Below are positions 43,957 through 53,751 of a DNA stretch of 64,000 nt, piece after piece (positions within the stretch are counted from its first letter, which is position 1; every line of letters starts with the position of its first letter). The notes beneath the pieces were generated by a model. That model did not search any database, was not told the DNA's origin, and was given only the letters and a program-made list of their open reading frames with translations. The position numbers were made by a program, and so were the translations under genes. Source of the DNA: Prevotella sp. (GTDB lineage Bacteria; Bacteroidota; Bacteroidia; Bacteroidales; Bacteroidaceae). The stretch covers positions 1-64,000 of the forward strand of contig JAGAXW010000020.1 of assembly GCA_017847725.1 (NCBI GenBank), written 5' to 3'.

Positions 43957-44091
43957 AAAACAGATGGAGCTTTTGATAAGAACCTCACGGGGGGCAAGTC
44001 CTCCTGTGAGCCAATAGCGATAAAATTTTGCAGAATTTAACGTAAATATTTTATCACTTGCCACCATCACATTTTTTTTGCCTACAACCAT

Positions 44092-44131
44092 AAAAATAAG
44101 GCTGCAATGTTTGGTTGCAGCCTTATTTTTT
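44092..44131 (+). terminator. Terminator just upstream of ftsY
   Basis: AAAAATAAGGCTGCAA (44092-44107) pairs with TTGCAGCCTTATTTTT (44115-44130) around a 7-base loop. It ends 3 bases before the ftsY -7 element and so insulates that gene from the accessory island. Confidence 0.88.
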
Positions 44132-44133
44132 CG

Positions 44134-44141
44134 TACTTTTG
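44134..44141 (+). promoter_or_regulatory. Promoter -7 element (TACTTTTG) of the ftsY operon
   Basis: TACTTTTG lies 20 bases before ATG 44162. It is directly behind the terminator, whose A/T-rich arm may supply the -33 region. Confidence 0.65.
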
Positions 44142-44161
44142 CAGTCGTAATATATTGCGTT

Positions 44162-45118
44162 ATGGGTATTTTCGGATTTTTTAATAAGGAAAAGAAGGAG
44201 ACACTGGACAAGGGATTGGAAAAGACCAAGACCAGTGTCTTCGACAAGATAGCCCGTGCCGTGGCCGGGAAGTCGAAAGTGGACGACGATGTGCTTGACA
44301 ATCTGGAGGAAGTGCTCGTCACGTCGGACGTCGGCGTGGAGACGACGCTCAAGGTCATCGAGCGCATCGAGGAGCGAGTGGCGCGCGACAAGTATGTCTC
44401 TACCAGCGAGCTGAACGAGATATTGCGCGACGAGATAGCCTCGCTGCTGGCCGAGAACAATTCGGACGACAACGACAACTGGGACCTGCCCGGCGACCAT
44501 AAGCCCTATGTCATCCTGGTGGTAGGCGTAAACGGCGTGGGCAAGACGACGACCATCGGCAAACTGGCGTGGCAGTTTAAAAACGCCGGTAAGAAGGTAT
44601 ACCTGGGTGCTGCCGACACCTTCCGTGCCGCTGCCGTGGAGCAGTTGTGCATCTGGGGCGAGCGCGTAGGCGTGCCTGTCGTCAAGCAGCAGATGGGGTC
44701 CGACCCCGCCTCGGTGGCATTCGACACGCTGCAGAGCGCCAAGGCCAACGGAGCCGACGTGGTGCTGATAGACACCGCCGGCCGCCTGCACAACAAGGTG
44801 GGACTGATGAACGAGCTGAAGAAGGTGAAGGAGGTCATGAAGAAGGTGTTGCCCGACGCTCCCGACGAGGTGATGCTCGTGCTCGACGGTTCTACCGGGC
44901 AAAATGCCTTCGAGCAGGCAAAGCAGTTCTCGGCCGTCACTCAGATTACGTCGCTGGCCATCACGAAGCTCGACGGCACAGCCAAGGGCGGCGTAGTCAT
45001 CGGCATCTCCGACCAGCTCAAGGTGCCCGTGAAGTATATCGGACTGGGCGAGGGCATGCAGGACCTGCAGCTATTCAATAAACGTCAGTTTGTGGACTCT
45101 CTCTTCAAGCATGACTAA
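44162..45118 (+). CDS. ftsY: Signal recognition particle receptor FtsY
   Basis: A 318-residue SRP GTPase that docks ribosome-nascent-chain complexes at the membrane. The short N-domain (LDKGLEKTKTSVFDKIARAV) lacks the long acidic A-domain of E. coli, normal for Bacteroidota. The G-domain shows VVGVNGVGKTTTIGKLA, AADTFRAAAVEQL, LIDTAGRLHNKVGLM and TKLDGTAKGG. ATG 44162 is used because the in-frame extension to 44078 crosses the terminator and promoter. It overlaps rimO by 8 bp. Confidence 0.96.
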   Translation: MGIFGFFNKEKKETLDKGLEKTKTSVFDKIARAVAGKSKVDDDVLDNLEEVLVTSDVGVETTLKVIERIEERVARDKYVSTSELNEILRDEIASLLAENNSDDNDNWDLPGDHKPYVILVVGVNGVGKTTTIGKLAWQFKNAGKKVYLGAADTFRAAAVEQLCIWGERVGVPVVKQQMGSDPASVAFDTLQSAKANGADVVLIDTAGRLHNKVGLMNELKKVKEVMKKVLPDAPDEVMLVLDGSTGQNAFEQAKQFSAVTQITSLAITKLDGTAKGGVVIGISDQLKVPVKYIGLGEGMQDLQLFNKRQFVDSLFKHD

Positions 45119-46400
45119 ACAGACGATAGACATCATCACCTTAGGCTGCTCGAAAAACCTGGTCGACAGTGAGCAGCTGATGGGGCTCTTTGAGGCCAAC
45201 GGCTATCATGTCACGCACGATGCCGAACAGCCTCAGGGTGAGATAGCCGTGGTCAACACGTGCGGATTCATCGAAGACGCCAAGCAGGAGAGTATCGACA
45301 CCATCCTCGAACTGGTGCAGGCAAAGGAGGAGGGACGACTGAAGAAACTCTATGTGATGGGATGCCTCTCGGAACGCTATCTGGCCGACCTGGAAGCCGA
45401 GATTCCGGAAGTGGACGGCTGGTACGGCAAGTTCAACTACAAACAGCTGCTGACAGACTTGCAAGAGACAAACACCTGTGAGGGTAGGCGCCATGTCACT
45501 ACGCCCAGTCACTATGCCTACGTGAAAATCTCGGAGGGCTGCGACCGCCATTGTGCCTATTGCGCCATCCCCATCATCACCGGCCGCCACAAGAGCAGGC
45601 CCATGCAGGAAATACTGGACGAGGTGCGCTGGCTGGTGGGGCAGGGTGTCAAGGAGTTTCAGGTCATCGCCCAAGAACTGACCTATTATGGAGTGGATAT
45701 CGACGGCCGTCAGCATATCGCCGAACTGATAGAGCGCATGGCAGAGATAGAAGGGGTGGAGTGGATTCGGCTACACTATGCCTACCCGGCTCACTTCCCA
45801 TGGGACCTGCTGCGCGTGATACGCGAAAAGCCGAACGTATGCAACTATCTCGACATCGCCCTACAGCACATCTCCGACCACATGCTGAGCCGCATGCAAC
45901 GCCATTTCTCCAAGCAAGAGACCTACGAACTGATAGAGAGAATACGCCGCGAGGTGCCCGGCATCCATATCCGCACGACGCTGATGGTGGGATTCCCGGG
46001 CGAGACGGACGACGACTTCAGCGAACTGATAGCGTTTACCAAATGGGCGCGCTTTGAGCGAATGGGTGCCTTTGCCTATTCGGAAGAAGACGGGACATAC
46101 AGCGCCCTGCACTACGCAGACGACGTGCCGGCTGAGGTGAAGCAGGCCCGACTGGATAAGCTGATGCGCATACAGCAGAACATCAGCGCCGAGATAGAGG
46201 CCGACAAGGTGGGGCGCCGGATGCGCATCATCGTAGACCGGCTGGAGGGCGACTATTTCGTAGGCCGCACGGAGTTCTGTTCGCCCGAGGTAGACCCAGA
46301 GGTGTTGGTGCCTGCTGCTGAAAATCTGCGGATTGGCGAGTTCTATGATGTACGCATTACGGATGCGGAGGAGTTTGATTTATACGCTACGACATTATGA
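45111..46400 (+). CDS. rimO: Ribosomal protein S12 methylthiotransferase RimO
   Basis: A 429-residue radical-SAM enzyme that methylthiolates the conserved Asp of S12. The N-terminal domain carries the auxiliary-cluster cysteines (LGCSKNLVDSEQL, VNTCGFIEDA, MGCLSERYL), followed by the radical-SAM motif EGCDRHCAYCAIP at about residue 146. The C-terminal TRAM domain ends the protein (MRIIVDRLEGDYFVGRTEF, YDVRITDAEEFDL). The start lies inside the ftsY end (8-bp overlap). It overlaps the HU gene by 4 bp. Confidence 0.95.
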   Translation: MTKQTIDIITLGCSKNLVDSEQLMGLFEANGYHVTHDAEQPQGEIAVVNTCGFIEDAKQESIDTILELVQAKEEGRLKKLYVMGCLSERYLADLEAEIPEVDGWYGKFNYKQLLTDLQETNTCEGRRHVTTPSHYAYVKISEGCDRHCAYCAIPIITGRHKSRPMQEILDEVRWLVGQGVKEFQVIAQELTYYGVDIDGRQHIAELIERMAEIEGVEWIRLHYAYPAHFPWDLLRVIREKPNVCNYLDIALQHISDHMLSRMQRHFSKQETYELIERIRREVPGIHIRTTLMVGFPGETDDDFSELIAFTKWARFERMGAFAYSEEDGTYSALHYADDVPAEVKQARLDKLMRIQQNISAEIEADKVGRRMRIIVDRLEGDYFVGRTEFCSPEVDPEVLVPAAENLRIGEFYDVRITDAEEFDLYATTL

Positions 46401-46681
46401 ATAACAAGGAGTTTATAGCAATGTTGGCCGAACGAACCGGCTATACTGCAAAGGATACCCAAAAGCTGGTGAACAACATGGTCGACGCTATGGGGGACGC
46501 TTTCCAAGACGGCAACTCCGTTATGGTACCTAATTTCGGTGTCTTTGAAACGAAGAAGAAGATGGAGCGTATCATGGTGAATCCGTCGACTGGTCAGCGT
46601 ATGTTGGTGCCGCCCAAACTGGTGCTTGGCTTTAAGCCAAACCAGGCCTGGAAGGCACAGCTGAAAGGAGGACAGGTATGA
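46397..46681 (+). CDS. HU-family DNA-binding protein
   Basis: A 94-residue HU/IHF-fold protein: NKEFIAMLAERTGYTAKDTQKLVNNMVDAMGDA forms the helical body, then GNSVMVPNFGVFETKKKMERIMVNPSTGQRM gives the DNA-binding arm with its conserved Pro, and LGFKPNQAWK the C-terminus. It overlaps both rimO and the following HU-LysM gene by 4 bp, so the two HU proteins are made together and could form a heterodimer. Confidence 0.9.
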   Translation: MNNKEFIAMLAERTGYTAKDTQKLVNNMVDAMGDAFQDGNSVMVPNFGVFETKKKMERIMVNPSTGQRMLVPPKLVLGFKPNQAWKAQLKGGQV

Positions 46682-47961
46682 TGGAGAAGTATACCATACA
46701 GGAGATAGCCAAGATACTTGTCGAGAAAAACGGGCTGTCGCAGCGCGACGCCAACAGATTCGCCACCGAGATGTTTGCCATCATCCTGGAGCAGCTGCAA
46801 CAGGGCGACTTCGTGAAGGTGAAAGGTCTTGGCACCTTTAAGATTATCAATGTCGAGGCCCGTGCCAGTGTCAGTGTGCGCACGGGGGAGCGTGTCTTGA
46901 TCGACAGTCATTCAAAGGTGAGCTTCACGCCGGATTCTACCATGAAGGAACTGGTCAATAAGCCTTTCTCGCAGTTTGAAACGGTAACACTCAATGAAGG
47001 CGTAGAATTTGACGATCTGGAAGACGATACTGACGAAGATACCTCTGTGGTCAAGGCTGTTTCCGACGATGCTCCTGTCGTGGAACCTGTTCCTGAGTTC
47101 GTTCCGGAATACGTGCCGGAGCCTGTCGTAGAACCTGTTGTGGAACCCATTCCTGAATTTATTCCGGAACCAGTTCCAGAGCCCGTTGTAGAGTCTGTCG
47201 TAGAGCCTGTTGTAGAACCCACTCCAGAGTCTGTTGTGGAACCCGTCGTAGAATCTGTTGTAGAACCCACTCCAGAGCCTGTTGTGGAACCCGTCGTAGA
47301 ACCTGTTGTGGAACCCACTCCAGAGCCTGTTGTGGAACCCAGCCCCATCGTAGAACCCATTCCCGAACCAGCTCCCGAACCGGAACCTGCTCCAGAGCCC
47401 GTCTCAGATAATAAACAGCCTCTGCTTGCAATTGACGACAATCCTCAAATATCCCGGTGGCTTTTAGTTGTAATGGGATTTGTTGGCGTTGCGGTTGCAA
47501 TGCTGTCTGCTTATGGAGGCTACCAGTATGGTATTGCCTCACAGCCATATGTGGCCGATACCGTCATGGTGAGGGATACGGTGTTCGTTCCCCTGCCGGA
47601 GGAGGAAGAGGACTCTGTAGAACAGTTTGACGTGACTGACGAGCAGCATGAGATGGCAGAAGAAGAGAAACCGCAGCCACAGCCCGAAGCCAAGACGGAC
47701 GAGGCATCGGAGATAGCTGACAAATACGCCAAGAAAGACGAGCGCGTACGACTGGGAGCATACCGCATCGTGGGCACGGCCCAAGTAGTGACGGTGAAGC
47801 CTGGTCAGACTTTCTATAGCCTGTGTAGGGCATATCTGGGTCCGGATATGGAGTGCTACGTGGAAGTGTACAACGACCTGCCCCCAGAGCCCCGCCTGAA
47901 TGCCGGTCAGACATTGAAGATACCGAAGTTGGAGCGCAAGAAGGCTCAAAAGAACAACTAA
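46678..47961 (+). CDS. Membrane-anchored HU-domain protein with periplasmic LysM domain
   Basis: A 427-residue protein with an unusual order. Residues 1-92 are an HU/IHF-type DNA-binding domain (TIQEIAKILVEKNGLSQRDA, GDFVKVKGLGTFKIINVEAR, SVRTGERVLIDSHSKVSF). Residues 105-125 are acidic. Residues 132-242 are Pro/Val/Glu repeats (many VEP and PEPVVE units). Residues 261-281 form one membrane helix (WLLVVMGFVGVAVAMLSAYG) with Arg on its N-terminal side. Residues 282-367 are a charged linker, and 369-417 a LysM domain (VTVKPGQTFYSLCRAYLG, LNAGQTLKIPKL). HU inside and LysM, a peptidoglycan binder, outside fit a bridge between chromosome and wall. Start 46678 overlaps the HU gene; ATG 46681 is an alternative. 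Confidence 0.85.
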   Translation: MMEKYTIQEIAKILVEKNGLSQRDANRFATEMFAIILEQLQQGDFVKVKGLGTFKIINVEARASVSVRTGERVLIDSHSKVSFTPDSTMKELVNKPFSQFETVTLNEGVEFDDLEDDTDEDTSVVKAVSDDAPVVEPVPEFVPEYVPEPVVEPVVEPIPEFIPEPVPEPVVESVVEPVVEPTPESVVEPVVESVVEPTPEPVVEPVVEPVVEPTPEPVVEPSPIVEPIPEPAPEPEPAPEPVSDNKQPLLAIDDNPQISRWLLVVMGFVGVAVAMLSAYGGYQYGIASQPYVADTVMVRDTVFVPLPEEEEDSVEQFDVTDEQHEMAEEEKPQPQPEAKTDEASEIADKYAKKDERVRLGAYRIVGTAQVVTVKPGQTFYSLCRAYLGPDMECYVEVYNDLPPEPRLNAGQTLKIPKLERKKAQKNN

Positions 47962-48090: not shown

Positions 48091-49086
48091 ATGGCAGAAG
48101 CTATTGATATCCGTGAATTAAATATTCGGATAGAACAACAAAGTGGATTCGTTACAAATCTGGTGACGGGCATGGATCGTGTAATTGTCGGACAGAAACA
48201 CCTTGTCGACAGTCTGTTGATTGGACTGCTGAGCGATGGCAATATTCTGCTTGAGGGTGTTCCCGGACTGGCTAAGACGCTGGCCATCAAGACGCTGGCC
48301 CAGTTGATCGATGCTACCTATAGTCGTATACAGTTTACACCGGATTTGTTGCCTGCCGACGTGACAGGTACCATGATATATTCTCAGAAAGACGAGAAAT
48401 TCCAAGTAAAGAAAGGTCCGGTGTTTGCGAATTTTGTACTGGCCGATGAAATCAACCGTGCTCCGGCAAAGGTGCAGAGTGCACTGCTGGAGGCTATGCA
48501 GGAGAAGCAGGTGACGATAGGCAGTGATACCTTCGAGTTGCCCAATCCGTTCCTTGTGATGGCCACCCAGAACCCGATAGAGCAGGAGGGCACCTATCCG
48601 TTGCCTGAAGCGCAGATGGACCGCTTTATGCTGAAGGTGGTGATAGGATACCCGACCATAGACGAAGAAAAGAAGATTATCCGCGAGAATATCGCTGGAG
48701 CACTGCCAAAGGTGCTGCCTGTCACGACGGCTGAGGAGATTCTTCAGGCACGTTCCGTAGTACGTGAGGTGTATATTGATGAGAAGATTGAACAGTATAT
48801 AGCCGACATCGTGTTTGCAACCCGCTATCCTGACCGTTATGGACTCAAGGACATGAAAGACATGATTTCGTTTGGCGGTTCTCCTCGTGCCAGTATCAAT
48901 CTTGCCAAGGCTGCCCGTGCCTATGCGTTCATCAAGCGCCGCGGATATGTGGTGCCAGAGGATGTCCGTGCCGTTGCTCACGATGTGTTACGTCATCGCA
49001 TAGGACTTACCTACGAGGCCGAGGCATCAAATATTACCAGTGAGGAAATCGTCTCGAAGATTGTTAATAAGGTGGAAGTTCCTTGA
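48091..49086 (+). CDS. MoxR-family AAA+ ATPase (Bat operon)
   Basis: A 331-residue AAA+ chaperone-type ATPase. Walker A is GVPGLAKTLAIK, Walker B and sensor regions are FVLADEINRAPAK and MATQNPIEQEGTYPLPEAQMDRFM, and Arg fingers lie near SPRASINLAK. MoxR ATPases work with von Willebrand factor A (VWA) proteins, supplied here by DUF58, BatA and BatB downstream, probably to activate or insert metal into envelope complexes. It is the first gene of the Bat operon; its stop overlaps the DUF58 start (TGATG). Confidence 0.92.
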   Translation: MAEAIDIRELNIRIEQQSGFVTNLVTGMDRVIVGQKHLVDSLLIGLLSDGNILLEGVPGLAKTLAIKTLAQLIDATYSRIQFTPDLLPADVTGTMIYSQKDEKFQVKKGPVFANFVLADEINRAPAKVQSALLEAMQEKQVTIGSDTFELPNPFLVMATQNPIEQEGTYPLPEAQMDRFMLKVVIGYPTIDEEKKIIRENIAGALPKVLPVTTAEEILQARSVVREVYIDEKIEQYIADIVFATRYPDRYGLKDMKDMISFGGSPRASINLAKAARAYAFIKRRGYVVPEDVRAVAHDVLRHRIGLTYEAEASNITSEEIVSKIVNKVEVP

Positions 49087-49955
49087 TGGAGACAAGTGAA
49101 ATCCTCAAGAAAGTACGGAAGATAGAGATTAAGGCCCGTGGCCTCAGCTCGAACGTCTTTGCCGGGCAATATCATTCTGCATTCAAAGGCAGAGGTATGG
49201 CCTTCAGTGAGGTGCGCGAGTATCAATATGGTGACGACATTCGTGACATTGACTGGAATGTCACGGCTCGTTTTCACCATCCCTATGTGAAGGTCTTCGA
49301 CGAGGAGCGTGAGCTGACTGTTATGTTGCTCATAGATGTCAGTGGCTCGCTTGATTTTGGGACACAGCGCCAGTTGAAGCGTGATATGGTGACGGAAATC
49401 GCTGCCACGATTGCTTTCTCTGCCATCCAGAACAATGACAAGATAGGGGTGATCTTCTTCTCTGACCACATAGAGAAATACATCCCTCCCAAGAAGGGAC
49501 GTCACCACATCCTATATATCATCCGCGAAATGCTGAATTTCAAGCCTGAGTCTCGTCGTACGGATGTGAAGCAGGCTTTAGAGTTCCTGACCAGTGTGTC
49601 TAAGCGCCATTGTACAGCCTTTGTGCTGAGTGACTTTTACGACGATCAGGATTTCCTGCAGGCTCTTCAGATAGCTAATCGTAAGCATGACCTGGTGGCG
49701 CTTCAGGTGTATGATGTGCGTGCCAAGGAGTTGCCGGATGTCGGCCTGATGCGTGTGGTCGATGCCGAGACTGGCCACGAACAATATATTGACACGAGTA
49801 GCCGAAGTCTCCGTCAGGCGCATCAGCGCTATTGGGAAAGGCAGCAGCAGCGATTGTATGAATACATGAATAAGAGTAATGTCGACTTGGTGAGCATTGC
49901 CACTAATGAAGACTATGTAAAGGCGTTACTTATGCTTTTTAAACAGAGAAGCTAA
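49086..49955 (+). CDS. DUF58 protein (VWA-like, Bat operon)
   Basis: A 289-residue DUF58 protein: SNVFAGQYHSAFKGRGMAFSEVREYQYGDD and IDWNVTARFHHPYVKVFDEERE form the conserved core. A VWA fold follows with the metal site LLIDVSGSLDFG (DxSxS) and a second Asp region FVLSDFYDDQDF. DUF58 proteins are obligate partners of MoxR ATPases. The start is ATG 49086, overlapping the moxR stop by one base, and its own stop overlaps the next ATG by one base, so translation is coupled. Confidence 0.9.
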   Translation: METSEILKKVRKIEIKARGLSSNVFAGQYHSAFKGRGMAFSEVREYQYGDDIRDIDWNVTARFHHPYVKVFDEERELTVMLLIDVSGSLDFGTQRQLKRDMVTEIAATIAFSAIQNNDKIGVIFFSDHIEKYIPPKKGRHHILYIIREMLNFKPESRRTDVKQALEFLTSVSKRHCTAFVLSDFYDDQDFLQALQIANRKHDLVALQVYDVRAKELPDVGLMRVVDAETGHEQYIDTSSRSLRQAHQRYWERQQQRLYEYMNKSNVDLVSIATNEDYVKALLMLFKQRS

Positions 49956-50998
49956 TGAGAAGATTGTCCGTATTGATATTGTTGGTCTTCAATGTTTTGA
50001 CAGCGTTGTCGCAAGTAAACGTTGAAGCAAGGATTGATCCGATAGAAATACTGATTGGGCAGCAGGCGCAGGTAGTTCTGACGGTTCATGCCGACGAGAA
50101 TGCCAACATAGAATGGCCTATGCTGAAGCCTCGCCAGTTGTTGAATGAGGGGGTTGAGGTCGTTCATGTGCAGCATCCTACCCAACATGAAATGGTGCTG
50201 ACGGTGACAAGTTTTGACGGACGGCTCTATCACCTGGATCCTTTCTCGGTAAAGGTGAACGGGCGTGAGTACAAGACGGCTGATTTGGCACTGAAGGTGG
50301 TGGAAGTAGAGGTCGACACTACGAAACTGGACAAGTTTTATGGTCCGAGAGACGTGCAGGACAATCCTTTTCTCTGGAGCGAGTGGGCCTCTGTGTTTTG
50401 GCTCAGCCTGTTAGTCATATTGCTGTCGGTTGTCGGCTACTACCTGTTTTTGCGACTGCGTGACAACAAGCCTATTGTCGTCCGTATCAAGATGGTCAAA
50501 CGGCTGCTGCCGCACCAGAAGGCAATGAAGGAGATAGAGCAAATCAAGACAGACCGACTGGTGACCTCTGAAAATCAGAAGGCTTACTATACCAAGCTGA
50601 CGGATACGCTGCGCCGCTATATTGAGGAGCGATACGGATTCTCGGCAATGGAGATGACGAGCAGTGAAATCATCGAGCGCCTGATGGCATCCGCTGACGA
50701 ACAGTCTCTGTCAGAACTGAGCCAGTTGTTCCTGACTGCCGACCTGGTTAAGTTTGCCAAGTATTCGACCCTCATCAATGAGAACGACGCCAATCTTGTA
50801 AGTGCTGTTGACTTTATCAATCAGACCAAACTTGAGAATCAGCCTACGCAAGAGATTGTGAAACCCGAACTCTCTGCCGCCGACCAACGCACACAAAAGA
50901 CCCGTCGGCTACTGAAGGCTGTCATCTGGTTGCTGGCCATCGCTACAGTGGGGCTTTTTGCCTATATCGTTTACAGCATGTATCAACTGTTAGTATAG
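49955..50998 (+). CDS. Bat-operon membrane protein of unknown function
   Basis: A 347-residue protein with a signal peptide (LSVLILLVFNVLTALS before QVNV). A periplasmic domain (about 20-140: ARIDPIEILIGQQAQVVLTVHAD) resembles the BatD Ig-like start. Membrane helices lie near 144-166 (VFWLSLLVILLSVVGYYLFL) and at the C-terminus (VIWLLAIATVGLFAYIVYSM). The cytoplasmic middle contains YYTKLTDTLRRYIEERYGFSAMEMTSSEII, similar to the C-terminal domain of DUF4381/BatD relatives. It is translation-coupled to DUF58 and lies 10 bp before batA. It probably helps the VWA proteins; the exact role is unknown. Confidence 0.78.
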   Translation: MRRLSVLILLVFNVLTALSQVNVEARIDPIEILIGQQAQVVLTVHADENANIEWPMLKPRQLLNEGVEVVHVQHPTQHEMVLTVTSFDGRLYHLDPFSVKVNGREYKTADLALKVVEVEVDTTKLDKFYGPRDVQDNPFLWSEWASVFWLSLLVILLSVVGYYLFLRLRDNKPIVVRIKMVKRLLPHQKAMKEIEQIKTDRLVTSENQKAYYTKLTDTLRRYIEERYGFSAMEMTSSEIIERLMASADEQSLSELSQLFLTADLVKFAKYSTLINENDANLVSAVDFINQTKLENQPTQEIVKPELSAADQRTQKTRRLLKAVIWLLAIATVGLFAYIVYSMYQLLV

Positions 50999-51008
50999 AA
51001 AAAGAAAA

Positions 51009-52007
51009 ATGGAATTTGAAAATAAAGAATATCTGTTTTTACTGCTGCCGCTGATACCTTATGTAATCTGGTATCTGATGTATCGCAAGAAAAGCGAGCC
51101 AACGATACGCATGAGCAATACTCGTGTCTATCAATATGCGCCTCGCTCTTGGAAAGTCAGGCTTATGCCCATTCAGATGCTGTTGCGTATCGCTGCCATT
51201 GTACTGCTGGTTATCGTCCTGGCGCGTCCTCAGACAAAAAATTCCTGGAAGAACAAGACGATGGAAGGTATCGACATCATGCTGGCCATGGATGTGTCGA
51301 CCTCAATGCTGGCTGAAGACCTCAAGCCTAACCGACTTGAAGCTGCCAAGCAGGAAGCCGCAGAATTCGTTGTTGCACGCCCTAACGATAATATTGGCTT
51401 GACTATCTTCGCAGGTGAGGCTTTCACGCAATGTCCTATGACGACAGACCATGCTTCCTTGCTCAACCTGCTCCATAACGTGCGAACCGATATCGCACAG
51501 CGCGGTTTGATAGAAGACGGAACGGCTATCGGTATGGGCCTGGCCAACGCAATCAGTCGCCTGAAAGACTCCAAGGCTAAAAGCAAGGTCGTTATCTTGC
51601 TGACAGACGGTTCAAATAATCGTGGCGACTTGTCGCCTATGACAGCTGCCGAGATAGCGAAAAGTCTTGGTATTCGTGTGTATACAATTGGTGTCGGCAC
51701 CAACAAGGTGGCACCTTATCCTATGATAGTTGCCGGTGGTGTTCAGTATGTTAATGTACCCGTAGAAATTGACACCAAGACCCTGAGTGATATTGCTCAT
51801 GCAACAGATGGCGATTTCTATCGTGCGACGAATAACCGTGAACTACAGAAAATCTATCAGGAAATAGATAAACTGGAGAAATCAAAGCTTAATATAAAGA
51901 AATTCAGTAAGCGCTACGAAGCCTATCAGCCCTATGCAATAGCTGCAGTGCTGATACTCTTGTTAGAGATGCTGTTGCGCATTACCGTGTTCCGTAAGTT
52001 ACCATAA
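51009..52007 (+). CDS. batA: Aerotolerance VWA protein BatA
   Basis: A 332-residue inner-membrane protein: two N-terminal helices (YLFLLLPLIPYVIWYLMY and LLRIAAIVLLVIVLARPQ) and one C-terminal helix flank a VWA domain with an intact metal site (AMDVSTSMLAEDLKPNR, TIFAGEAFTQCPMTTDHASL, LLTDGSNNRGDLSPMT). Bat proteins were named from Bacteroides aerotolerance, but the biochemical function remains open. It pairs with the BatB-like protein downstream, whose sequence it mirrors. Confidence 0.92.
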   Translation: MEFENKEYLFLLLPLIPYVIWYLMYRKKSEPTIRMSNTRVYQYAPRSWKVRLMPIQMLLRIAAIVLLVIVLARPQTKNSWKNKTMEGIDIMLAMDVSTSMLAEDLKPNRLEAAKQEAAEFVVARPNDNIGLTIFAGEAFTQCPMTTDHASLLNLLHNVRTDIAQRGLIEDGTAIGMGLANAISRLKDSKAKSKVVILLTDGSNNRGDLSPMTAAEIAKSLGIRVYTIGVGTNKVAPYPMIVAGGVQYVNVPVEIDTKTLSDIAHATDGDFYRATNNRELQKIYQEIDKLEKSKLNIKKFSKRYEAYQPYAIAAVLILLLEMLLRITVFRKLP

Positions 52008-52032
52008 AAATAACGCAAATAATAGAAAGACC

Positions 52033-53751
52033 GTGTTTCGATTTGAAGATCCCATATATCTCTATTCCTTGGTACTGATCCCATTGTTGGCACTTGTTCG
52101 TTTCGCGTTGTTGCGGCAACAGAAGAAACGCTTGCGCCGTTTTGGTGACATAGAACTCTTGCGCCAACTCATGCCGGATGTTTCTCGGGTACGCCCTTCT
52201 GTGAAATTCTGGATGTTGCAGCTGGCATTGGCATTACTCATTGTCGTGATTGCCCGTCCACAGTTTGGAACAAAAATCAGCAATGAGAAGAGAACTGGTA
52301 TTGAGACGATTATTGCGATGGATGTCAGTAACTCGATGCTGGCAGAAGATGTTACACCCAGTCGACTGGACCGTGCAAAAATGATGGTAGAGAATCTGGT
52401 GGATCATTTTACGGACGACAAGATTGGTCTTATCGTTTTTGCTGGCGACGCCTTCATACAGTTGCCCATAACAAGTGACTATGTGTCGGCAAAAATGTTT
52501 CTTTCAAGCATTTCCCCCTCCATGATAGCTACACAGGGAACGGATGTCGCAGCTGCTATCAGACTGGCAACTCATAGCTTTACAAAGCAGGAGGGCGTCG
52601 GGCGTGCCATCATTGTTATCACGGATGGAGAGGACCATGAGGGAGGTGCGTTAGAAGCTGCTGAGGAAGCGAAGAGTCAAGGGATGCTCGTCTATGTCTT
52701 AGGTGTCGGATCGACAAAGGGTGCACCTATTCCTATCGGCGACGGCGACTATCTGAAGGACAATACTGGGCAGACCGTGATGACGGGGCTTAACGAGGAA
52801 ATGTGCCGACAGATAGCCCAGGCTGGCGGTGGCGCATATATACATGTGGAGAATAACAGCCGTGCCCAGGATTTGCTTGATGCAGAACTTGGCAAGTTGA
52901 CAAAAAAAGAAATTAGCAGTACCATCTATAGCGAGTATGATGAGCAATTCCAGTATGTCGGTTTATTGGCTTACCTGCTCTTATTGCTTGAGTTGTGCAT
53001 ACTGGAGATTAAGAATCCGCTGCTGAGGAATGTATCCCTCTTCAAGAGAAAAGGTACTGCGGTGCTGCTATTGCTGATAATAGGATGCTGTTTTATGCCT
53101 TCTGATTTGTCAGCACAGAATGCCCGCCAGTTGGTGCGACAGGGAAATAAACATTTTCGTGCAGGAAACTATGCAGATGCTGAGGTCGCGTATCGTAAGT
53201 CTGTAGAGAAAGATGCACGTAACGCCCAAGCTGCCTATAATCTTGGAAATGCCTTGCTTGCACAGCGTAAGGATTCTGCGGCAGTCGTCCAGTTTGAGGC
53301 TGCTGCAAAACTGGAAGAAAATCCTATCCGCAAGGCCATGGCTTATCACAATATTGGCGTTATATGTCAGGGCAAACAGATGTACTCTGAAGCCATAGAG
53401 GCTTACAAGGAGTCTTTGCGCAATAATCCTGATTCTGATGAGACCCGTTATAATCTTGAACTGTGTAAACGTCAACAGAAACAACAGCAGAATCAGCAAC
53501 AGCAGGATAAGTCTAAACAAGACAAGAATCAAAAGAATCAGCAACAGCAACAAGATAAACAGAACGATCAGAGCCAGCAAAAAAATCAAGATAAGCAGAA
53601 CAAGGAAGCGCAGCAACAGCCACGACAGATGAGTCGTGAGAATGCTGAGCAACTGCTTAATGCCGCCATTCAGGAGGAGAAATCTACCCAGGAACGTATG
53701 AAGAAGGCACAGCAGCAGGCAGGACGTCGCCGGCTCCAGAAGAATTGGTAA
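52033..53751 (+). CDS. BatB-BatC fusion protein (VWA plus TPR)
   Basis: A 572-residue protein from GTG 52033. Residues 1-335 are BatB-like: N-terminal helices, a VWA domain with metal site AMDVSNSMLAED (Asp97, Ser99, Ser101) and VITDGEDHEGG, and a helix near 307-325. Residues 338-361 (KRKGTAVLLLLIIGCCFM, DLSA) are a former signal peptide or a second membrane helix. A BatC-like TPR domain follows (GNKHFRAGNYADAEVAYRKS, KQMYSEAIEAYKESLRNNPD). Residues about 465-540 are a Gln/Lys/Asn-rich low-complexity tract. In several relatives BatB and BatC are separate genes, so this is a fusion with the TPR half presumably periplasmic. Confidence 0.88.
   Translation: MFRFEDPIYLYSLVLIPLLALVRFALLRQQKKRLRRFGDIELLRQLMPDVSRVRPSVKFWMLQLALALLIVVIARPQFGTKISNEKRTGIETIIAMDVSNSMLAEDVTPSRLDRAKMMVENLVDHFTDDKIGLIVFAGDAFIQLPITSDYVSAKMFLSSISPSMIATQGTDVAAAIRLATHSFTKQEGVGRAIIVITDGEDHEGGALEAAEEAKSQGMLVYVLGVGSTKGAPIPIGDGDYLKDNTGQTVMTGLNEEMCRQIAQAGGGAYIHVENNSRAQDLLDAELGKLTKKEISSTIYSEYDEQFQYVGLLAYLLLLLELCILEIKNPLLRNVSLFKRKGTAVLLLLIIGCCFMPSDLSAQNARQLVRQGNKHFRAGNYADAEVAYRKSVEKDARNAQAAYNLGNALLAQRKDSAAVVQFEAAAKLEENPIRKAMAYHNIGVICQGKQMYSEAIEAYKESLRNNPDSDETRYNLELCKRQQKQQQNQQQQDKSKQDKNQKNQQQQQDKQNDQSQQKNQDKQNKEAQQQPRQMSRENAEQLLNAAIQEEKSTQERMKKAQQQAGRRRLQKNW

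Follow-up and report, generated by a model that had tools for sequence, protein, structure and literature searches.

An HU-helix-LysM protein and its HU neighbor in Prevotella: a conserved gene pair that might tether the nucleoid to the cell wall

Introduction

To our knowledge, the means by which Bacteroidota hold and place their chromosomes are little understood, and a conserved two-part protein running from DNA to the wall would offer a direct, testable handle on chromosome placement in this phylum. Among described systems, the closest in plan is HU-SPOR, reportedly set out by Burroughs et al. in 2017 as a chain of HU-CCDC81_bac_1/2 domains, a helix and a SPOR domain, and said to have a predicted role in chromosome partition. 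In layout, HU-SPOR resembles the protein examined here, with an HU domain, a single membrane helix, a wall-binding domain predicted to lie in the periplasm and an occurrence in Bacteroidota, but it differs in having two HU-CCDC81 domains per chain and SPOR in place of LysM. Because this known relative follows the same plan, the design of HU plus helix plus wall-binding domain is not new, and HU-LysM is a variant of it.

A second point of comparison is the HU/IHF group itself. Both arms of IHF carry a proline. IHF alpha/beta and Escherichia coli HU alpha/beta are given in the main text of PMC5683647 as heterodimers of two HU-fold subunits. The pair proposed here would resemble them in consisting of two HU-fold subunits, but unlike IHF one of its arms is altered or shortened and one of its subunits is predicted to span the membrane. 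The same 2017 survey (PMC5683647) describes HU_bacL, a Bacteroidetes HU clade with long charged C-terminal extensions (mean 238 residues); the strings “membrane”, “LysM” and “peptidoglycan” are absent from its main text. By that description, HU_bacL and the protein described below are both HU proteins of Bacteroidetes whose C-terminal extension is long and charged, and the clade may overlap the HU-LysM family. The passages on HU_bacL mention no second HU gene as a partner. Our searches of open-access literature turned up no description of an HU-LysM protein, a form that the first-pass annotation of this DNA had called apparently little described.

Results and Discussion

Layout and conservation of the anchored protein

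The window (the whole 64,000-nucleotide stretch of Prevotella sp. DNA analyzed here) encodes a protein in which an HU domain is followed by a spacer, a membrane helix and a LysM domain:

46678..47961, + strand: anchored HU-TM-LysM protein, 427 aa, a single ORF
46693..46959, + strand: HU domain of the anchored protein, aa 6-94 (Pfam PF00216, 69.4 bits; cut-off 22.4)
46846..46920, + strand: beta-arm of the anchored HU, aa 57-81, with Val67 at the position of HU's intercalating Pro
46957..47004, + strand: post-HU motif NKPFSQFETVTLNEGV, aa 94-109 (N94, P96, F97 and F100 each in 80/80 family ORFs)
47062..47415, + strand: Pro-Val-Glu spacer, aa 129-246, assigned by composition
47461..47517, + strand: membrane helix, aa 262-280, assigned by hydrophobicity, with a Lys/Arg bias on its flanks in the family
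47791..47925, + strand: LysM domain, aa 372-416, below the Pfam cut-off and recognized through a family profile

The arm and proline positions in the anchored HU are presumed ones, assigned from the known HU structure. Conservation was assessed in 80 ORFs from the window's family, comprising the 30 matches with the best scores (one of which, L005, is the window's own copy) and a second set of 50 from Prevotella, Segatella, Hoylesella and further members of the Prevotellaceae; short peptide patterns, PDMECYVE among them, contributed to the choice of the second set, which biases conservation in favor of those peptides. Rows for a plain HU (L002), for the window again (L004) and for loci without a query match (L001 and L003) were left out, and the 145/151 matches of the first family search mix in plain HU and so do not tell how many anchored proteins there are. 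A helix was present in 79/80 family ORFs (L005 counted), as was a match to the LysM profile, the latter being partly circular given that the profile was partly built from the same ORFs. The sole ORF lacking both was L017, which is truncated (177 aa) and was also left out of the spacer, charge and topology counts (n = 79). The HU domain gave a full-domain PF00216 match in 76/76 members of set A2 (which omits L017 as truncated, and L023, L025 and L027 as running off their loci). Within it, Lys47, Arg62, Ser64, Gly70, Ile75, Phe83 and Pro85 were each found in 80/80 ORFs, and position 80 was Lys in 78 and Arg in 2.

The layout that the first-pass annotation had read at 46678-47961 was borne out, being intact in 79/80 family ORFs and recurring in the distant family f24. 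Its figure of 110 residues for the spacer was close to the 118 measured (P 30%, V 27%, E 23%). Between aa 96 and the helix, 79 family ORFs had a median of 137 aa (64-340), with D/E making up 33%. Spacer length as a conserved trait is ruled out by that range of 64-340 aa.

Pairing with HU2 and distribution

Three genes lie 5' of the anchored gene, on the same strand and in overlapping frames:

44078..45118, + strand: ftsY, upstream neighbor, a listed ORF with a provisional start (Pfam SRP54 258 bits, SRP54_N 55.6 bits; the name is that of the first-pass annotation)
45111..46400, + strand: rimO, overlapping upstream neighbor (Pfam Radical_SAM, UPF0004 and TRAM_2, which fit the name given earlier)
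46397..46681, + strand: HU2, a 94-aa HU protein (PF00216 84.5 bits; cut-off 22.4) and candidate DNA-gripping soluble subunit

Positions 46678-46681 are common to the HU2 stop and the start of the anchored gene, 46397-46400 to the rimO stop and the HU2 start, and 45111-45118 to the end of ftsY and the start of rimO. HU2 stood immediately 5' of the anchored gene, on the same strand, in 80/80 family loci (window's copy counted), and was present in all 50 of the more distant loci inspected, half of them from elsewhere in the order Bacteroidales and half from the distant family. Among 246 genomes sampled across the order, 37 scored 4.3e-23 or better against the anchored profile. HU2-type matches (3.6e-20 or better) occurred in those 37 and in G011, where both proteins form one open frame, and the HU2 match lay 8-35 nt 5' of the anchored match on the same contig and strand in 37/37. 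The score cut between HU2-type and ordinary HU is narrow (3.6e-20 versus 3.3e-19 in the next genome), and adjacency is the firmer evidence. Both 37 and 38 are lower bounds, with the pairs at L159-L161 falling under both cuts; in G643 a frame of 156 aa matched the anchored profile at 2.3e-19. As judged from the comparison within the window's family, the layout is not a chance arrangement, because helix, LysM profile and upstream HU2 recur together at these frequencies.

The majority of the 246 order genomes were without a strong match, and the system is therefore dispensable in the order. In a sample of 392 genomes from across the phylum, the strong long-frame matches listed came from the window's family, from one more family of the order and from f24, which lies outside the class. 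HU2 adjoined a long HU protein in 25/25 inspected f24 loci, and by eye the long proteins of all 25 combine acidic sequence with a hydrophobic segment and an end resembling LysM. The f24 proteins (L095-L119) carry an extra C-terminal stretch after LysM that is absent from the window's family, and L160 and L161 look similar by eye. Among viral contigs, 27 stretches fit a pattern and 0 encoded a relative.

A single open frame covers both HU2 and the anchored protein in 19 genomes from two families: 5 of genus g11 in the window's family (L155, L205-L208) and 14 of family f71 (L162, L209-L211, L213, L214, L222-L225, L227, L230, L234, L243). Both HU domains were recognizable by profile in the one-frame proteins of g11 and g353; in the g352 loci inspected by eye, all that was left of the anchored HU was its final strand and a related form of the post-HU motif. 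Such joining is the usual sign of proteins that work together, and here it points to a pair acting as a dimer; the one-frame forms recall entry 2iie, which we take to be single-chain IHF. Since HU2 and the anchored gene keep each other's company across genomes and repeatedly share an open frame, the functional unit is likely the pair of HU2 and anchored HU.

Arm asymmetry and a proposed tether

The two HU proteins differ in the arm. In the window's family HU2 has N62, P63, K54, P72, P73 and K74 each in 80/80, with the intercalating proline of HU and IHF present throughout, whereas in the anchored HU the proline position is taken by Val (75) or Ile (5) in all 80 ORFs. Arm net charge had a median of +5 (4 to 7) in HU2 versus 0 (-3 to 2) in the anchored HU. 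Beyond the family, where HU2 tips were placed via an ungapped offset, unfused loci of the order kept the HU2 tip proline in 25/25 (20 NP, 5 HP) and unfused f24 loci in 23/23 usable rows (leaving out L113 and L117, whose best match was the anchored HU, and L094, from another family). In the distant family the NP tip was also kept by most anchored HU domains. The asymmetry is therefore not universal, and it probably arose later, inside the order.

The reading we prefer, and hold at a little under even confidence, is that the products of the two overlapping genes form an asymmetric HU heterodimer that tethers the nucleoid to the wall. HU2 would grip the chromosome via its basic, proline-tipped arm, and the anchored HU would serve mainly as dimer partner and dock. 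From this dock the long acidic spacer would lead to a single inner-membrane helix, N inside and C outside, and the periplasmic LysM domain would hold the pair to the wall by sitting on peptidoglycan. Such a tether could position the chromosome or hold it against the envelope. It builds on the computed domains, family conservation, HU2 pairing, arm asymmetry (in the window's family) and shared frames elsewhere, from which we infer dimerization, DNA binding, topology, peptidoglycan binding and a cellular role for the pair. If it is true, an HU subunit has been converted from DNA binder to anchor. The first-pass annotation had likewise proposed a link from nucleoid to wall, with the anchored HU itself on the DNA; the layout, the membrane span and the predicted link of that proposal gain support from conservation, but its DNA-binding part fits poorly with the lost Asn-Pro tip and neutral arm of the anchored HU.

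Outside the 80-ORF set the anchored arm was shortened, from 29 to 9-19 positions in 11 loci (L155-L157, L159, L162, L205-L208, L210, L211; the L155 distance was taken by eye, the script having anchored on another motif, and several rows of the arm survey were unscorable). In L156 and L157 of g11 the shortened anchored arm sits beside a separate HU2 with a full-length arm, the proline of the L157 HU2 also being changed. The HU2 arm was weakened as well in one-frame and reduced lineages: in one set of these, 6/16 loci had the tip proline and the median arm charge was 0.5, with values down to -3 in genus g352; in another such set the proline was present in 6/8 loci and charges ranged from 0 to 7. 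HU2-type arms without proline and basic charge (L205-L220) are unexplained by a simple DNA-tether model.

These arms bear on an alternative that we judge unlikely, in which the HU parts are mainly protein-protein adaptors and the complex ties non-DNA cargo, or DNA indirectly, to the wall. Eukaryotic CCDC81 is a proposed protein-protein adaptor. An adaptor would sit well with an anchored arm that is neutral and, in 11 loci, shortened even though the post-HU motif is retained, as well as with the loss of proline and charge from HU2 in one-frame and reduced lineages; against it, HU2 of the window's family keeps in 80/80 the arm features that a DNA binder should have. It is doubtful that HU2 grips DNA in the classic HU manner in lineages with one-frame or reduced loci, and since the HU2 arm is weakened there, joining backs the pairing rather than a strong DNA grip in those genomes. 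A dock for a DNA-holding HU2 is best supported in the window's family, where HU2 is intact, and in derived lineages an adaptor role is as plausible.

Less likely still is that the anchored HU homodimerizes and binds DNA itself, with HU2 merely a neighboring paralogue. The HU domain does score well, Lys47 and Arg62 are invariant and position 80 is always basic (Lys 78, Arg 2), and most distant-family anchored HUs retain the NP tip. However, the Val or Ile at the proline position in 80/80, the neutral arm and its shortening in 11 loci would ill suit a DNA binder, and a mere neighbor would not be expected from the 37/37 pairing with HU2 or from the shared open frames.

LysM domain and membrane topology

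The LysM domain of the window's protein scored 17.4 bits, under the Pfam PF01476 cut-off of 20.9, so from the window's sequence alone it is unproven; at an E-value of 0.01 Pfam LysM was found in 23/76 family members and in 0/9 more distant relatives. A profile built from 41 C-terminal domains matched many solved LysM chains, among them Kbp (2.8e-14), ECP6 (2.3e-13) and LytE (2e-8), and at the level of sequence profiles this 41-row alignment settles the LysM homology of the C-terminal domain. The likeness to Kbp, LytE and ECP6 lies in that homology; the matched chains are not described as HU proteins, and the Kbp match is in a 157-residue chain. Kbp is a cytoplasmic potassium binder, whereas LytE and ECP6 are peptidoglycan and chitin binders. 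Because the best solved match is thus a cytoplasmic protein, LysM alone is no proof of wall binding.

The window's anchored protein has a single hydrophobic segment, at aa 262-280. There was no strongly hydrophobic N-terminal stretch (the highest 19-mer in the first 108 residues scored 1.23), and no second hydrophobic stretch above 1.6 was found from residue 101 on in any of 79 family ORFs. Lys and Arg near the helix numbered 165 on the N side versus 97 on the C side in those ORFs; by protein, 50 were N-heavy, 13 C-heavy and 16 equal (n = 79), a modest bias among related rows. The lack of an N-terminal or second hydrophobic stretch, together with the N-side excess of Lys/Arg, supports a placement with HU inside and LysM outside, in the predicted periplasm.

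A LysM domain that is not on peptidoglycan, in a protein that senses ions or envelope state and signals to the nucleoid, would be in keeping with Kbp as best solved match and with the sparse Pfam hits. We regard this as improbable, in that the other matches include the peptidoglycan and chitin binders LytE and ECP6 and the domain's predicted place is the periplasm.

The ftsY-rimO neighborhood

Further 5', rimO was present in 80/80 family loci and ftsY in 50/50 loci long enough to reveal it. Farther out, rimO was found in 8/25 more distant loci of the order and 0/25 distant-family loci, all inspected with flanks of ~1.5 kb. By these counts the ftsY/rimO linkage is local to the window's family, and a looser link beyond the ~1.5-kb flanks is possible. 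The first-pass annotation had described the anchored gene as translation-coupled to HU2 and to ftsY/rimO, and the overlaps are borne out. As a functional partner, ftsY/rimO is weakened by the loss of linkage in the more distant loci. That the locus serves transertion, the coupling of transcription and membrane insertion near the SRP receptor, as the constant rimO and ftsY linkage within the family could suggest, is highly improbable given the rimO counts of 8/25 and 0/25, even with a looser link beyond the ~1.5-kb flanks possible. Downstream, at 48091-53751 of the window, lie MoxR-type AAA, DUF58 and BatA/VWA domains, as in the aerotolerance (bat) operon, and many relatives also have a moxR match 3' of the anchored gene.

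A T10 run at the helix end in family f71

In relatives from genera g326, g352 and g353 of f71, an invariant CTTTTTTTTTTC marks the end of the membrane helix (L162, L209-L215, L217-L220 and 24 of L221-L250). The helix-end codons were CTT TTT TTT TTC in 29/29 loci, which had been collected for that feature, and the four third positions of the run codons were invariant while neighboring third positions varied. Independently of that selection, a LysM frame was obtained from 24 of 30 g352 loci, and the run was present in all 24. In ten genomes (G841, G848, G863, G866, G878, G882, G894, G914, G916, G917) the LysM frame is +1 to that of HU and helix, and both frames overlap at the run. The run was absent from the other f71 loci (L120-L122, L175-L204), from control loci below L120 and from the window's gene. 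The T10 run looks like a candidate for programmed transcriptional slippage or frameshifting that makes LysM optional. Homopolymer sequencing error as the cause of the split frames is not favored, given that the run is T10 in loci with agreeing frames as well as in those with disagreeing ones; errors elsewhere in those genes are possible.

A wider reading, which we put forward as doubtful, would make this a dedicated asymmetric HU pair of DNA holder and membrane/wall dock that elsewhere was joined, had its second arm shortened and came to have LysM optional through slippage at T10, tuning the wall-tied share of the nucleoid. If that is true, slippage could set how much of the nucleoid is tied to the wall.

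HU-SPOR in the same genome

The HU-SPOR of related design to which the first-pass annotation had alluded is present in the window's own genome, which encodes one copy (L148, on G000:C17; PF18174 97.6 bits, PF18175 88.2, SPOR 39.7). By the same profiles the anchored protein is not an HU-SPOR: PF18175 reached 14.7 bits (cut-off 35), and PF18174 and SPOR were absent at an E-value of 1. PF18174 was found in 224/246 order genomes, over its cut-off in 217. Replacement of HU-SPOR by HU-LysM is ruled out by those 224 genomes, the window's own included. Among the 20 genomes listed as lacking PF18174 were 6 of the 37 HU-LysM genomes; 2 further genomes without it are unlisted. Just 3' of the L148 HU-SPOR lies an FHA-domain ORF (PF00498, 44.9 bits).
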